NCBI RefSeq assembly: GCF_011045165.1
Contig: NZ_JAAKZI010000008.1
Location: forward strand, 62,001-126,000
Length of the DNA stretch: 64,000 nt
Direction of reading: 5' to 3'
Origin: Arthrobacter silviterrae
GTDB taxonomy: Bacteria > Actinomycetota > Actinomycetes > Actinomycetales > Micrococcaceae
Numbering within the stretch: position 1 is the stretch's first letter; the number at the start of each line of letters is the position of its first letter. Below the pieces are notes generated by a model. The model searched no databases. It worked only from the letters and a program-made list of their open reading frames with translations, and was not told where the DNA came from. Made by a program: the position numbers and the translations under genes. Shown in pieces: positions 19,691-34,726 of the stretch.

Positions 19691-19735
19691 GGTCGGGCTG
19701 ACAGGATTTGAACCTGCGACCCCTTGACCCCCAGT
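19691..19735. repeat. Left attachment site (orphan tRNA-Pro 3' fragment)
   Basis: 45 bp identical to 34682-34726. It covers the 3' part of tRNA-Pro from the anticodon loop through the T arm and acceptor (minus strand) and diverges immediately after CCAGT. It lacks the 5' half and cannot form a tRNA, so it is an att site and not a second tRNA gene. Confidence 0.93.
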
Positions 19736-20487
19736 AATGGGGCCACCGTATCCCCTAGATTCCGCCGATGTTCGGGCCGCTCCGTCACGGCAATTCGGCG
19801 GCGGATTCGGGGCCGGGAGTGCCCCACAGAATACTGGGAATTCCGGCAGTGTGCACTCACAGATGCACACACGAATTGGTTCTAGCGAAGCGCTCAGCCA
19901 TATGTACCTTGCGACGGAAGGGGCGGTTTCCGACGAATTGCCGTCCCAGGTTTGGCCTGTTGTTTGCCTAACTGGTTCTCAGGTAGCGTCTATCCCGTCC
20001 TCCCAGTCCCCCAATTTGGGAGGGCAAACCTGAAGCCGCCCCGCTCGACAGCGTGGGGCGGCTTCTTGCTTGTTGGTCACTCTCCGAGGCGCCCCCAACG
20101 GCGACGTAGTGCGTCCGTGCTCGGGTCGAGTGGGCCAACATTTTTGACTGTACTCGTGGGTAGTTTGAGGGACATAGCTTTGGCTTTTGATTGGACTTTT
20201 GTTACCCGGCGGTATGTGACATCACATTCTTAAATGTGACATGGGCGACTGCCTGACGGGGGTATGTTCTTTTTGGTGGTGATTCCGTTGACGGATCCTT
20301 TCATCACCAAATCCTGCATGGCGTGTCTACCCCCATTGGTGTGCCGTGCAGCGTGTGTCGCGCCTAACCCCATTGGTGCGGCACACACCAGGCATCCGGA
20401 CCCCTTTGACATTCCGGACGCCGTGCCCTCACCCACTCCGACGGGTGGGGGCACACTCAATTTTGTGGCGTTGGGAAGAGTGCTGGC
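19736..20487. other. Non-coding left end of the island
   Basis: 752 bp with no convincing gene; open frames here have no SD and no coherent protein features. It holds a terminator-like hairpin at 20032-20065, a direct repeat ATGTGACAT at 20214-20222 and 20234-20242 (the first embedded in TGTGA-CA-TCACA), and CCCCATTGGTG repeated near 20331 and 20369. An 8-bp stem pairs GTGTGCCG at 20339-20346 with CGGCACAC at 20379-20386. It could contain a packaging site, an RNA or regulatory DNA. Confidence 0.5.
20032..20065 (+). terminator. Rho-independent-type hairpin in the island's left end
   Basis: GAAGCCGCCCC / GGGGCGGCTTC, 11-bp stem with a 12-nt loop, followed by TTGCTTG. It would stop transcription entering from the left. 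Confidence 0.65.
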
Positions 20488-20622
20488 ATGAAGAAATACA
20501 GCGGCAAGCAATCCGGTCCGAACCGATACGGTGGATGGTCCTCCTTGCGGACCATGAGGGCTTTGATTCTGCTGGCATTGGCCACGGTCGCCGTCGTTAT
20601 TCTCGTCTTCGTCAACATTTGA
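20488..20622 (+). CDS. 44-aa single-pass membrane peptide
   Basis: Starts MKKYSGKQSGPNRYGGWSSL, has a basic segment, then one hydrophobic helix of about 20 residues (ALILLALATVAVVILVFVNI) ending at the C-terminus. ATG is preceded by GGGAAGAG with about 7-nt spacing. No relative recognised. It lies upstream of the DUF2510 and lipoprotein genes on the same strand, so it may belong to the island's cargo. Small prophage membrane peptides can act in superinfection exclusion or as toxins; nothing here decides which. Confidence 0.6.
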   Translation: MKKYSGKQSGPNRYGGWSSLRTMRALILLALATVAVVILVFVNI

Positions 20623-20955
20623 CCTAGGGACGGCGGCCACCGCCGGAGGTGGTGGGCGGGGCCGCCGTGTCGAGGTGAGTTCTCCGAGGTCAGCAACGGT
20701 GCGTATGATTCCCTGGTCCAAAACCCCAACATTCCCGACCATACCCCCGGGCACGCCTTCGGACAATGGGTTACCACTCGGCCATGCACACGGTCTTTGA
20801 CTTGTGCGGATCCGGCAGGGAACGCGGTCACGGTTTGGCTTGCGGGCCAGTCAAGGTTGCGGCGGGCCGGTCAAAGCTTCGTTGTCGGTGCGCGGCGGTA
20901 CGATCAGCACACAACCCGTCATAGACGCCGGGTCTAATTCCAAGGTGGTAGGGCA
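20623..20955. other. 333-bp spacer without a gene
   Basis: A possible stem pairs ACGGCGGCC with GGCCGCCGT just after the small peptide gene (about 20628-20668). The last 80 bp should hold the promoter and the leader of the DUF2510 gene (AAGGTGG shortly before its ATG). Nothing else recognised. Confidence 0.4.
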
Positions 20956-21876
20956 ATGAGCATCCCAGCAGGCTGGTATCCGGAATCAAGCGGCTCTATG
21001 ACAGAGCGGTGGTGGGACGGCAACCAATGGACGGAACAGACCCGCCCCGCCGCGACTCCCCCGCCACCGCCAACGGTCCCAACAGCCACAGCACCCTGGG
21101 TCAACGATCACCCTGCCGCGAACAAGTCTTCGTGGAAGCGCAGTCTCCGTGAGTCCAAGGAGATCAAGGCCATGGAGGCGGGGGGCCTGTCCTATGCCGA
21201 ACTCATGGCCCCTACACAGGCAGTCACAGCAACGGCATCATCCGGTAAGGCGGCCAGCCCTGAAATACAACCTCAATTCGGGGGTAATCGGCCGACTTCC
21301 GGGTTGTCAGAAGGCAATCCTCTGATCGTCGATCTCGACAAGCGCGGAGAGTCCATCCTCGCCGAGAATCTACCTGACGGCGAGCGCATTGTGGGCAAGC
21401 TGCAGGGCGACTTCGGCCAAGCCATCGTGTTGACCGACCGGCGGCTGTACATCCTGAAGTGGGGATTCCAGACTGGACAAACGTTCGGTGGCAAATGCAC
21501 CGGGTTCGACTATAAGAATCTGACGTCGGTGGAGATGAAGAAGCACGCCGTCACGCGCATGGTCGTCGTAAATTCAGCGTCCAACCAGAACAACAACAGG
21601 CTGAGCTACTGGGCTGACAGGGGCAAGGGCAACAACGCCATTGAGGCGGATAACGTCGTCACCTTCAGCGCCAAGGCCGACACCCAGTTCCAGCAACTCG
21701 TGAACCTGGCCCGTGAGAACATCACCAACGCCCACCAATCACCCGCCGGCGCCCCGGCATCTGGCATCGACGTGGCATCGCAACTCGAGAAGCTCGCGTC
21801 GTTGATGGACCGTGGACTTCTGACTGAAGAAGAGTTCGCGACGCAGAAGATCCGCCTATTGGCTGGCGGTGACTAA
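20956..21876 (+). CDS. DUF2510 - PH-like - SHOCT protein of the island
   Basis: 306 residues in three parts. DUF2510 (residues 5-26, GWYPESSGSMTERWWDGNQW); a Pro/Thr-rich linker; a central domain about residues 130-240 resembling bacterial PH-like modules (ERIVGKLQGDFGQAIVLTDRRLYILKWG); and a C-terminal SHOCT helix hairpin (IDVASQLEKLASLMDRGLLTEEEFATQK). Such PH/SHOCT combinations recur in actinobacteria and their phages, but the role is unknown. ATG at 20956 after AAGGTGGTAGGGCA. It is followed 3 nt later by the lipoprotein gene, so the two are co-transcribed. Confidence 0.8.
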   Translation: MSIPAGWYPESSGSMTERWWDGNQWTEQTRPAATPPPPPTVPTATAPWVNDHPAANKSSWKRSLRESKEIKAMEAGGLSYAELMAPTQAVTATASSGKAASPEIQPQFGGNRPTSGLSEGNPLIVDLDKRGESILAENLPDGERIVGKLQGDFGQAIVLTDRRLYILKWGFQTGQTFGGKCTGFDYKNLTSVEMKKHAVTRMVVVNSASNQNNNRLSYWADRGKGNNAIEADNVVTFSAKADTQFQQLVNLARENITNAHQSPAGAPASGIDVASQLEKLASLMDRGLLTEEEFATQKIRLLAGGD

Positions 21877-21879
21877 CCC

Positions 21880-33365: not shown

Positions 33366-33378
33366 GAAGGCAGCAGAA

Positions 33379-34668
33379 ATGAGCAAACACGTGTTCCGGC
33401 GCTGTGCATGCCGGGACGAAAACGGGAAGCAGTACGGGGCGAGTTGCCCCAAACTGGAGAACCCGAAGCATGGTTCGTGGGGCTACTACGTTGCCGGCGG
33501 GATCGATCCAATCACCCGGAAGCGCATCCAGTACCGCAAGACCGGATTCTCAACCCAGAAGGCGGCACGAGAGGCCCGCAACGACGTCGCCAGCAAGGTC
33601 GACCGGGGAACGTACATCGCGCCCACCAGGGAAACGCTGGCGACCTATCTGGACGCGTGGCTCCCCCGGCGCGCGGCAACTGGGCAGGGCCTTCGCCAAA
33701 CGACCGTAGATAACTATCGCCGCTACATCGACAACGACATCAAGCCATCCCCACTCGGCGCGATGGCACTCACTGACATCCGCCGGTTCCACATCAACGA
33801 ATTCTTGGGATCTCTGACTGCAGCCGGGCGCGGTGCAACAACGGTGCGCCGCGTTGCCGCCGTCCTCCAGGGTTCGCTTCGCGCCGCCGCCCGTTCAAAC
33901 CGGATCGACCACAACCCGGCGACTGAGCTGGAGCTGCCAACCGTCGACTCGGGCGAGGTCCATGCCTGGGAACCGGCCGAGGTCGGGGTGTTCCTGGACG
34001 AAGCAGCGAAGCACCGCCTCGGGGCGTTGTTTGAGGTGGCCATGTTCACGGGCTTGCGACGCGGCGAACTGCTCGGGCTCCGTTGGACCGACGTCGACCT
34101 CATCAAACGGACCATCTCCGTTCGGAACAACCGGGTGCAGGCAAAGGGGCAGGTGGTGGAGAATCCGACGAAGACCGCGTCAGGCAGGCGCACCGTGGAC
34201 CTGGACGATCGCAGCGTGGGCGCTTTCGTCGCACTGCAGATCCTCCAAGCCCAAGAGCAGACGGACGGCCAAGAGGCATACACAGCCAGCGGGTACGTAT
34301 TCACCATGGAGGACGGCCGGCCCCTGAAGCCGCAATATGCGACACGGCTGTTCGACCGGATCCGAGTGAACGCAAAACTACCCAAGCTGACACTCCACGG
34401 CTCACGGCACGAACATGCCGCCTTGATGATTGCTTCCGGCGTCGACATAGCCGTCGTGTCCAAGCGGTTGGGGCACAGCTCCATCAGCATTACCTCGGAC
34501 ATTTACGGTCACCTCATCGGCTCCGCATCGAGGGATGCGGCGCAAGGAGCGGCGGCTCTGGTGCCCGCTCGCAGCTCTGGTGCACACACAGTGCACACAC
34601 AAGGGCAGATTTCGACCCCTGAGCATGAAAAAAACCGCCCAACCACAGGGCTAATTCCCAGTGTTTGA
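33379..34668 (+). CDS. int: Tyrosine-recombinase integrase
   Basis: 429 residues. N-terminal arm-binding AP2-like segment (WGYYVAGGIDPITRKRIQYRKTGFSTQKAA), SAM-like core-binding domain from about residue 85 (ATYLDAWL..), catalytic domain with Arg in TGLRRGELLGLRW, HxxR in LHGSRHEHA, LGHSS and the nucleophile Tyr in SDIYGHL, so it is complete. ATG 13 nt after the repressor stop, with GGAAGG upstream. It abuts the tRNA-Pro att site, the usual arrangement for tRNA-directed integrases. Confidence 0.95.
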   Translation: MSKHVFRRCACRDENGKQYGASCPKLENPKHGSWGYYVAGGIDPITRKRIQYRKTGFSTQKAAREARNDVASKVDRGTYIAPTRETLATYLDAWLPRRAATGQGLRQTTVDNYRRYIDNDIKPSPLGAMALTDIRRFHINEFLGSLTAAGRGATTVRRVAAVLQGSLRAAARSNRIDHNPATELELPTVDSGEVHAWEPAEVGVFLDEAAKHRLGALFEVAMFTGLRRGELLGLRWTDVDLIKRTISVRNNRVQAKGQVVENPTKTASGRRTVDLDDRSVGAFVALQILQAQEQTDGQEAYTASGYVFTMEDGRPLKPQYATRLFDRIRVNAKLPKLTLHGSRHEHAALMIASGVDIAVVSKRLGHSSISITSDIYGHLIGSASRDAAQGAAALVPARSSGAHTVHTQGQISTPEHEKNRPTTGLIPSV

Positions 34669-34677
34669 GCGGTTTTT
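34629..34677 (+). terminator. Integrase terminator
   Basis: AAAACCGC pairs with GCGGTTTT around an imperfect stem with an inner CAGGG/CCCAGTG part, ending in a run of T. It overlaps the last codons of the integrase gene and ends 4 bp before the att repeat. Confidence 0.75.
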
Positions 34678-34681
34678 GTTC

Positions 34682-34726
34682 GGTCGGGCTGACAGGATTT
34701 GAACCTGCGACCCCTTGACCCCCAGT
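34682..34726. repeat. Right attachment site inside tRNA-Pro
   Basis: 45 bp identical to 19691-19735, from the bases after the discriminator to the anticodon loop of the tRNA-Pro gene. Integration restores a full tRNA because the island carries the 3' portion. Confidence 0.93.

Follow-up and report, generated by a model that had tools for sequence, protein, structure and literature searches.

Small integrative islands with a tape measure gene in Arthrobacter silviterrae and related genomes, candidate phage satellites

A 64,000-nucleotide stretch of the Arthrobacter silviterrae genome (GCF_011045165.1, contig NZ_JAAKZI010000008.1, positions 62,001 to 126,000; here the window) contains an integrated island at 19691-34726 (15,036 bp including both end repeats), which a preliminary description made from the sequence alone had taken for a phage satellite with its own tape measure protein (TMP) gene and no virion or packaging genes. 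The TMP gene (23523-27230, - strand) encodes 1,235 residues as called, with a later ATG near 27206 possible as the start, and its product matches PF10145 (8e-28), a C-terminal SLT domain (4e-6) and many tape-measure PHROGs. Pfam and PHROG family scans agree with the rest of that description: no convincing match to head, tube, baseplate or terminase families was found among the other scanned window proteins, and the nearest approach to a packaging family is a very weak match between hth147, a 147-residue protein encoded just upstream of the TMP, and the terminase small subunit family phrog_57 (1.3e-3).

Borders and genes of the tRNA-Pro island

The island is bounded by a perfect 45-bp direct repeat, of attL type at 19691-19735 and of attR type at 34682-34726, the right copy forming the end of a tRNA-Pro(ggg) gene (34682-34757, - strand), as first described. 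A wider repeat of 52 nt (19684-19735 and 34675-34726) is 94% identical and includes the 45 identical nucleotides. The G+C content of 1-kb windows is 0.54-0.63 within the island and mostly 0.64-0.72 outside, where three windows fall at 0.60-0.63. An empty site is present in the congener G013, where a query made of both flanks joined across a single att copy is matched without a break at 85% (positions 3-1283 of 1283). In G018 and G019 no more than about 200 bp separate the two flanks, and in most of the other 19 congeners they are farther apart (several by 5-13 kb) or a single flank was found near the site. Flank gaps of 5-13 kb, for example in G003, G010, G012 and G016, raise the possibility that other elements insert here too, making this tRNA-Pro site a hot spot. 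No plasmid copies of the island were found by megablast. The att repeats, the empty site in G013 and eight comparable islands elsewhere rule out chance as the source of this arrangement.

At the right end, a complete tyrosine integrase of 429 residues (33379-34668, + strand; PF00589, 1.5e-23), as the preliminary description had called it, is 64% identical over 412 residues to the integrase of a sister island in genome G167. It is preceded by an XRE-like regulator of 321 residues (32400-33365, + strand), opposite which lie two AlpA/excisionase-like HTH_17 genes on the - strand (32002-32217 and 31757-32005), the second with a relative in the G167 island (54% over 64 residues). The arrangement first proposed, XRE opposite two AlpA genes, thus holds in its layout and in the two HTH_17 genes, while the regulator itself has a weak HTH_31 match (3.3e-3) below the cut-off and is assigned by its position opposite the early operon. 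Between the regulator and the first AlpA gene two promoter-like sites overlap in divergent orientation (32251-32280, + strand, 11/12; 32305-32276, - strand, 10/12), and the total of four promoter-like sites is not above that of shuffled sequences (mean 3.3).

The - strand operon continues with proteins of 115 (31410-31757) and 220 residues (30751-31413) without a family match, a 97-residue frame without a family that was called a gene by reading (30368-30661), a replication initiator (29322-30509, the frame as scanned, its start codon not settled; phrog_3171, 1e-49) and a DnaB-type helicase of 444 residues (28004-29338; PF03796, 2e-72), so that the initiator plus DnaB pair of the preliminary description is confirmed. 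A 73-residue protein without a family (27786-28007) is followed by hth147 (27270-27713), which combines an N-terminal part of unknown fold with a C-terminal HTH_17 domain and serves below as the marker gene of the island class. A stem-loop on the same strand (27221-27249; 12-bp stem with one G-U) directly precedes the TMP gene, and strong stem-loops were seen just upstream of the TMP in four islands (the window, L137, L220 and L221). After the TMP gene, still on the - strand, come a 73-residue protein without a family (23244-23465) and two AlpA-like HTH_17 genes scanned with Pfam only (22904-23197 and 22617-22907), the latter 39% identical over 91 residues to a gene after the TMP of the G006 island; with hth147 these make three HTH_17 genes besides the AlpA-like pair. 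The cargo, on the + strand, consists of a putative lipoprotein (21880-22524; lipobox VLAGC) and a DUF2510 plus SHOCT protein (20956-21876).

The window TMP is matched by 2,052 of 50,697 phage records, none covered over 80%. Its residues 7-452 are 54% identical to the tape measure of Arthrobacter phage Mufasa8, the closest relative of the N-terminal part, and the remainder resembles phages of Streptomyces, Propionibacterium and Corynebacterium; the protein therefore looks chimeric. The nearest full-length relatives found are IMG/VR phages at about 43% (L013, over about 1,150 residues).

Sister islands in the same family

PF10145 was found at 41 places in 36 of the 197 genomes of the family sample: one in the window, two in G122 and 38 others. 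Judged from their layout and from blast comparison with a small reference set, these 38 comprise 34 late-gene modules, three places on contigs too short to class (L111, L113, L115) and one island (G083). A profile built from hth147 and two relatives matched 12 of the 197 genomes at 1e-6 (13 places), and the six places read were TMP islands in G179, G040, G006 and G167, a related island in G139 and a chromosomal gene in G199; the reading left out a second G167 place (L141), G100, G127 and G133, and G068 was added later. A profile of four island TMPs matched seven of the 197 genomes and added islands in G068 and G091 as well as prophages in G131 and G167.

In total there are nine TMP islands of 11.8-16.3 kb, that of the window (G000) and one in each of eight further genomes of its family; all nine have perfect att repeats (22-53 bp), and eight of the nine are in tRNA genes. 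The window island (about 15.0 kb, att 45 bp, tRNA-Pro) is accompanied by those of G083 (about 16.3 kb, 40 bp, tRNA-Met), G122 (about 15.7 kb, 22 bp, tRNA-Leu), G167 (about 16.0 kb, 44 bp, tRNA-Pro(ggg)), G179 (about 15.1 kb, 52 bp, tRNA-Tyr), G040 (about 12.2 kb, 48 bp, tRNA-Met), G006 (about 12.5 kb, 40 bp, tRNA-Met), G068 (about 11.8 kb, 53 bp, tRNA-Thr) and G091 (about 13.9 kb, 27 bp, no tRNA found). The G167 island adjoins a GTPase gene that reads like the window gene at 34866-36422. The repressor is divergent from the excision-replication operon in the window island and, by reading, similarly placed in most sister islands.

An hth147-type gene lies upstream of the TMP in eight of the nine islands (the window and seven of eight sisters), at a distance of 7 kb in G083 and with a weak match in G040. 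Neither hth147 (E<=0.01) nor the coiled-coil marker protein of G040 (1e-3) has a match among the 50,697 phage records. In the order sample, the hth147 profile matched four of 396 genomes at 1e-10, and the coiled-coil profile matched two of 396, both with TMP islands. An AlphaFold prediction of hth147 made without an alignment was too poor to use (mean predicted local distance difference test score 45.5). In G221, from another family of the order, an hth147 relative lies beside a 467-residue gene and a 215-residue coiled-coil-like protein, with no TMP seen (L222).

Family scans covered 69 proteins (seven of the window, 61 of the 94 frames of seven sister islands and one more of G006); the 33 frames dropped were regulator, HTH and integrase genes and frames judged spurious, and the integrase, TMP and terminase proteins and the G091 island stood outside the set. 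Among the 20 Pfam families matched by these 69 proteins there was no capsid, portal, protease, connector, major tail or Dit family, the phage-structural matches being Mu F and DUF7426 (one protein each); the PHROG scan matched 68 families, of which the first 25 were tallied. In addition, the nine islands were searched with 458 proteins drawn from 19 phage or prophage stretches and from four annotated phages, keeping the best match per 300-bp bin. TMP relatives were matched in all nine, and relatives of integrase, XRE, excisionase, initiator, DnaB and terminase were matched as well. Beyond these, G167 has a fibre N-terminus, G083 a MuF relative, G040 a 120-residue protein, G068 and G091 a tail-chaperone relative (phrog_3860, 2e-6) and G179 and G091 a tail-completion/Neck1-like protein (phrog_5), while scaffold C-termini were matched in G179, G006 and G091; the accessory structural genes vary between islands. 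Each of ten control stretches gave 19-85 matches, and an earlier, narrower comparison gave the same picture. Large-terminase genes occur in three islands, G167 (8e-41), G179 (1.8e-37) and G122 (1.7e-36). Portal, capsid, tube, major tail, baseplate and Dit genes were not detected in any of the nine.

The TMP reading frame is uninterrupted in all nine islands, and all nine TMPs were assigned by identity to phage TMPs. Family models are clear for the window, G083 and G122 and weak or absent for G167, G179, G040 and G006, with G068 and G091 outside that scan. The genes of these four islands align with IMG/VR phage genes along most of their length, at about 40-83% identity, and were called TMP by identity to a gene lying between chaperone and Dit in full phages; in L149 and L218 a related TMP gene directly precedes a Dit-type gene. 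Their products have hydrophobic stretches and a C-terminal TPGE-type motif, as in other TMPs.

Three observations that would have spoken for remnants of ordinary phages or for unrelated insertions were looked for in these relatives. No TMP island was seen joined to structural modules, the islands being discrete and att-bounded at 11.8-16.3 kb, and the neighbours of the TMP gene are not scattered, given the recurrent hth147-type gene. The idea of a conserved core stands in part: integrase and XRE opposite AlpA, a replication module, hth147 and TMP recur, but the islands do not share one set of replication genes or one TMP lineage. By itself the initiator-DnaB module is no mark of a satellite, because some such loci continue into late genes: initiator relatives occur in five of 23 genomes of the genus sample and 11 of 197 of the family sample (G000 included in both), and the loci L057, L063 and L065 continue, by reading, into terminase, portal or capsid genes. 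Rep-DnaB elements in four congeners (L055, L057, L058, L060) have their integrase near a conserved 474-residue gene, which we take to be glutamine-synthetase-like.

Several further loci came to light in the survey. The related island in G139 (L136) has a serine-recombinase-like gene, relatives of hth147 and of the coiled-coil protein and a 247-residue tail-tip-like protein, and no TMP was seen. A 10.5-kb contig of an actinobacterial metagenome-assembled genome (L035) encodes, in order, an integrase, an initiator, an hth147 relative, a chaperone-like gene and a 609-residue TMP; it was left out of the island count for want of defined ends. TMP-bearing IMG/VR contigs were considered as satellites, and the 15 full gene lists drawn from 21, 74 and one TMP-matching loci read as ordinary phages or fragments, except L223, a 14.4-kb contig with an integrase, a terminase relative (46%), a coiled-coil gene and a scaffold-type motif, in which the stretch ends before any TMP.

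Tape measure genes shared with resident prophages and scaffold-like motifs

Two genomes carry both an island and a complete-looking prophage with a closely related TMP gene. In G122 the two genes are 91.7% identical over 3,584 bp, with homology that starts and ends with the gene, and in G167 they are 88.3% identical over 2,628 bp. The prophages are identified by portal (1.6e-40) and large terminase (4e-103) in G122, its capsid and major tail proteins matching no family of known function and being named by reading only, and by portal (5e-89), major head protein (1e-90) and Dit (9e-13) in G167. A second shared stretch in G167 (444 bp at 77%) covers the fibre N-terminus, and three stretches that together span about 60 kb around the prophage gave no other match at E<=0.01. 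A shared packaging site in G167 was also sought, with nothing beyond the TMP and fibre at E<=0.01 and nothing convincing among short words. The G122 surroundings hold four more short matches (74 bp at 85%, 60 bp at 75%, 29 bp and 27 bp). The 74-bp element, located before the prophage terminase and the island TMP (L070 8686-8759 and L121 3923-3996), was considered and rejected as a packaging site since it reads as a promoter (TTGACA) plus a downstream hairpin; from this reading and its two positions it is likely a shared late promoter or leader.

At the protein level the G167 pair is 90.9% identical over 882 codons (both 882 residues; dN/dS 0.167) and the G122 pair 90.8% over 1,183 codons (1,183 and 1,187 residues; dN/dS 0.375), both ratios being pairwise and not assignable to the island branch. 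Identity varies along the G167 pair, from 76-77% in codons 401-600 to 99% in codons 601-700 and 100% in codons 701-800; the last block is the most variable against four related phages (42-58%, compared with 65-85% for codons 601-700). In G122 the diverged part is codons 601-800. Variation in mid-TMP is common to phage-phage pairs and so is not special to the G167 island. The resident TMP is the closest found in each case, at 91% against 83% or less for G167 and at 90% against 53% for G122; the other seven islands gave no close phage TMP, with best identities of about 37-60%. A hypergeometric p of 0.004 for co-residence (8 island and 3 prophage genomes of 197) is post hoc and descriptive only. 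Comparison of the TMPs with those of putative helpers, which had been proposed as a check, was possible in these two same-genome pairs. Tail hijack is supported. The suggestion that the island changes tail length is not borne out where it can be checked: because TMP length is unchanged, or nearly so, in both pairs, a new tail length is unlikely to be the point in them.

These data bear on whether the islands are instead degenerate prophages, with late genes mostly deleted and the tape measure gene left by chance. In phages the tape measure gene tends to be the longest, prophages of the same host family have a similar early module, the G083 integrase looks split and the accessory structural genes vary, all of which would suit such decay. 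We nevertheless judge it quite unlikely, as nine islands of similar size have perfect att repeats and an uninterrupted TMP gene with no portal, capsid, tube or baseplate gene detected, the pairwise dN/dS values are 0.17 and 0.38, DNA homology to the resident prophages of G167 and G122 is limited to TMP, fibre N-terminus and short matches, and hth147, which has no phage match, lies upstream of the TMP in eight of nine. An integrative plasmid-like mosaic that picked up a TMP gene without using it would account for the different TMP lineages; it appears very improbable, since repeated TMP acquisition in islands of like layout, the same dN/dS values and the near match to a resident prophage point to use.

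A second link to phage particles comes from short C-terminal motifs. In six phage stretches (L155, L158, L180, L188, L198, L219) a gene of 218-250 residues just before the capsid position ends in one of two kinds of motif, LKTMTPEQIVEAQEKGLLRNLLG or SPEFFQANKADILDALQHGRITA, and in the three stretches tested a major head protein follows (L155, 1e-70; L188, 3e-39; L219, 3e-70). From their position the motif-bearing phage genes are inferred to be putative scaffolds, the direct PHROG match of the L219 gene being weak (phrog_233, 1.4e-3). Small island proteins with the motif occur in G179 (61 and 70 residues), G006 (51), G068 (106) and G091 (98), the best match of each of these four islands reaching 1e-7 or better with motif-only queries; G040 is a weak fifth, and shuffled motif queries gave no match at 1e-3 in 400. 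In Staphylococcus aureus pathogenicity island (SaPI) 1, CpmB shares a C-terminal RIIK motif with the helper scaffold and competes with it, leading to small heads (PMC5644958).

Several islands carry lipoproteins, those of G179, G167 and G006 being related at 44-56%, and it is speculation that they act in exclusion. They also bear on the possibility that these are interference or exclusion islands, unpackaged, in which the TMP is a decoy that poisons the tail assembly of invaders, to the advantage of the host cell. Interference with tails is an established mode of phage defence (Tai; PMC11364771), and phage TP-J34 has an exclusion lipoprotein that is reported to target a TMP (cited in PMC3952083). 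We consider this account unlikely. Large-terminase genes are present in three islands, several have scaffold motifs, chaperones or a fibre N-terminus, and the TMPs are full length in both same-genome pairs; because of the terminases, scaffold motifs, chaperones and fibre N-terminus, particle building fits better than poisoning.

Satellite interpretation and known systems

The absence of virion genes from the islands and the same-genome TMP pairs support the original proposal of a satellite that supplies its own tape measure, and on the sequence evidence we consider it probable that the window island is an integrative phage satellite of an actinobacterial family that places its own TMP into helper siphophage particles. 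In the sequence of events we envisage, XRE would repress the divergent AlpA-replication operon until helper infection or induction lifts that repression, Int and AlpA would excise the island, and Rep and DnaB would replicate it, with hth147 as a possible late regulator. The satellite TMP would then join the helper tail-initiation complex and the helper tube would polymerise around it, giving a chimeric tail, and the satellite genome would be packaged into helper heads, which in some members are probably made smaller by a scaffold-mimicking peptide. Ejected first at infection, the TMP would serve the entry of satellite DNA.

The gain from a private TMP would most likely be freedom from host or prophage systems aimed at the helper TMP, an alternative being that helper tails are starved of assembly. 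Escape from TMP-directed systems is plausible because the TMP of the satellite PLE11 (a phage-inducible chromosomal island-like element, PLE) lets tails form despite PLE11's own tail inhibitor Rta (PMC12987554), and because of the TP-J34 lipoprotein noted above. More generally, it is rather likely, though less so than the satellite identity itself, that capsid-less satellites of this kind rewrite both ends of the helper particle, by scaffold-copying peptides and a private TMP, with the TMP repeatedly acquired and kept in register by recombination. Differing TMP lineages point to several acquisitions, and the identity of island and prophage in G167 codons 701-800, the block most variable among phages, points to recombination. 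Some members may rewrite the tail further with a chaperone, a tail-completion protein or a fibre adaptor.

A number of observations weigh against this interpretation. The early module is common to ordinary prophages of the same host family, and the islands vary in integrase, replication genes and TMP lineage. No terminase was seen in six of nine islands, and the G083 integrase is apparently split. No coiled-coil protein or scaffold mimic was detected in the window island, nor a scaffold mimic in the G167 island, where the pre-capsid protein of the prophage is also without the motif. There was no PHROG match at 1e-3 for the TMPs of G167, G179 and G006, and that of G040 was weak (1.6e-5). The dN/dS values are pairwise and cannot be placed on the branch of the island. 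No match to portal (PF04860) or capsid (PF05065) in the window genome would indicate a resident helper of these types, and the window TMP has only distant relatives (about 43%), so the argument from island-prophage pairs rests on the sister islands.

Satellite-encoded TMPs were reported in 2026 for PLE and some capsid-forming phage-inducible chromosomal islands (cf-PICIs; PMC12987554). Like PLE, which has been shown by experiment to build chimeric tails from satellite and phage parts, the islands described here encode their own TMP and, in two cases, a chaperone. They differ in host phylum, in their presumed helpers (siphophage-like prophages, compared with the contractile-tailed ICP1) and in having a tyrosine integrase and sitting mostly in tRNA genes. 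The PLE11 TMP differs from that of ICP1 by 95 residues and gives tails 10 nm shorter (PMC12987554), whereas in two genomes here the island TMP is close in sequence to that of a resident prophage and equal or nearly equal to it in length.

Resemblance to phage-inducible chromosomal islands (PICIs) of the SaPI type lies in size and in an integrase and repressor opposite an excision-replication operon, the layout typical of that group. SaPI-type PICIs take their tails whole from the helper, whereas the islands here carry a TMP. The small scaffold-mimicking protein of four islands recalls SaPI1 CpmB (PMC5644958). In the broad sense of a PICI-like satellite, all nine islands are att-bounded with an integrase and have no complete virion set, and a divergent repressor is present in the window island, with a similar layout in most sisters; in the strict sense AlpA-like genes are present and no known PICI regulator or small terminase was identified, the hth147 match to phrog_57 being very weak. 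The cf-PICIs and the Streptomyces satellites MulchRoom and MiniFlayer likewise supply part of the virion but have their own capsid genes (PMC10690885), none of which were detected here. According to its legend, Extended Data Fig. 10 of PMC12987554 shows putative tmp genes in some cf-PICIs, but the capsid, portal, protease and connector that characterise cf-PICIs were not found here, a tail-completion/Neck1-like gene being present in two islands. Temperate actinobacterial siphophages (Mufasa8; L145, L146 and L149 of IMG/VR; prophages L071 and L218) share the TMP, and in G167 the fibre N-terminus, but have head, tail and packaging modules.

Among the papers listed in literature searches on satellite-encoded TMPs there was no capsid-less actinobacterial case, and while the kind is known from PLE and cf-PICIs, the actinobacterial capsid-less variant appears to be new. 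Satellites were once thought to take tails whole from their helpers, a rule that the PLE work of 2026 broke (PMC12987554), and if an independent family in actinobacteria does likewise, tail rewriting would become a general satellite strategy. The two same-genome pairs are ready models for roles of the TMP beyond length, such as the choice of DNA-entry partner and escape from TMP-directed exclusion. A domain-based survey counts short elements with an integrase and one structural domain as intact prophages (PMC10023795); such elements may be satellites, as these islands suggest.

Minor features of individual loci were also recorded. The integrase gene of the G083 island is apparently broken into two frames that overlap (L117 9992-11172), both parts 74-77% identical to one prophage integrase, and the same island has a 370-residue gene with HTH and ImmA/IrrE-like parts beside a 176-residue gene (L087 4267-5910), perhaps a defence or toxin-antitoxin pair. 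A helicase-like gene next to this island was considered as cargo and rejected, as it lies outside the att repeat. In a scan for defence families most matches were of the generic HTH kind, with one capP and a few others besides, and a PemK-like toxin is among the scanned island proteins. In G120, two equal-scoring tape measure genes lie 44.5 kb apart on one contig with nearly the same late-module layout (L089 and L090).

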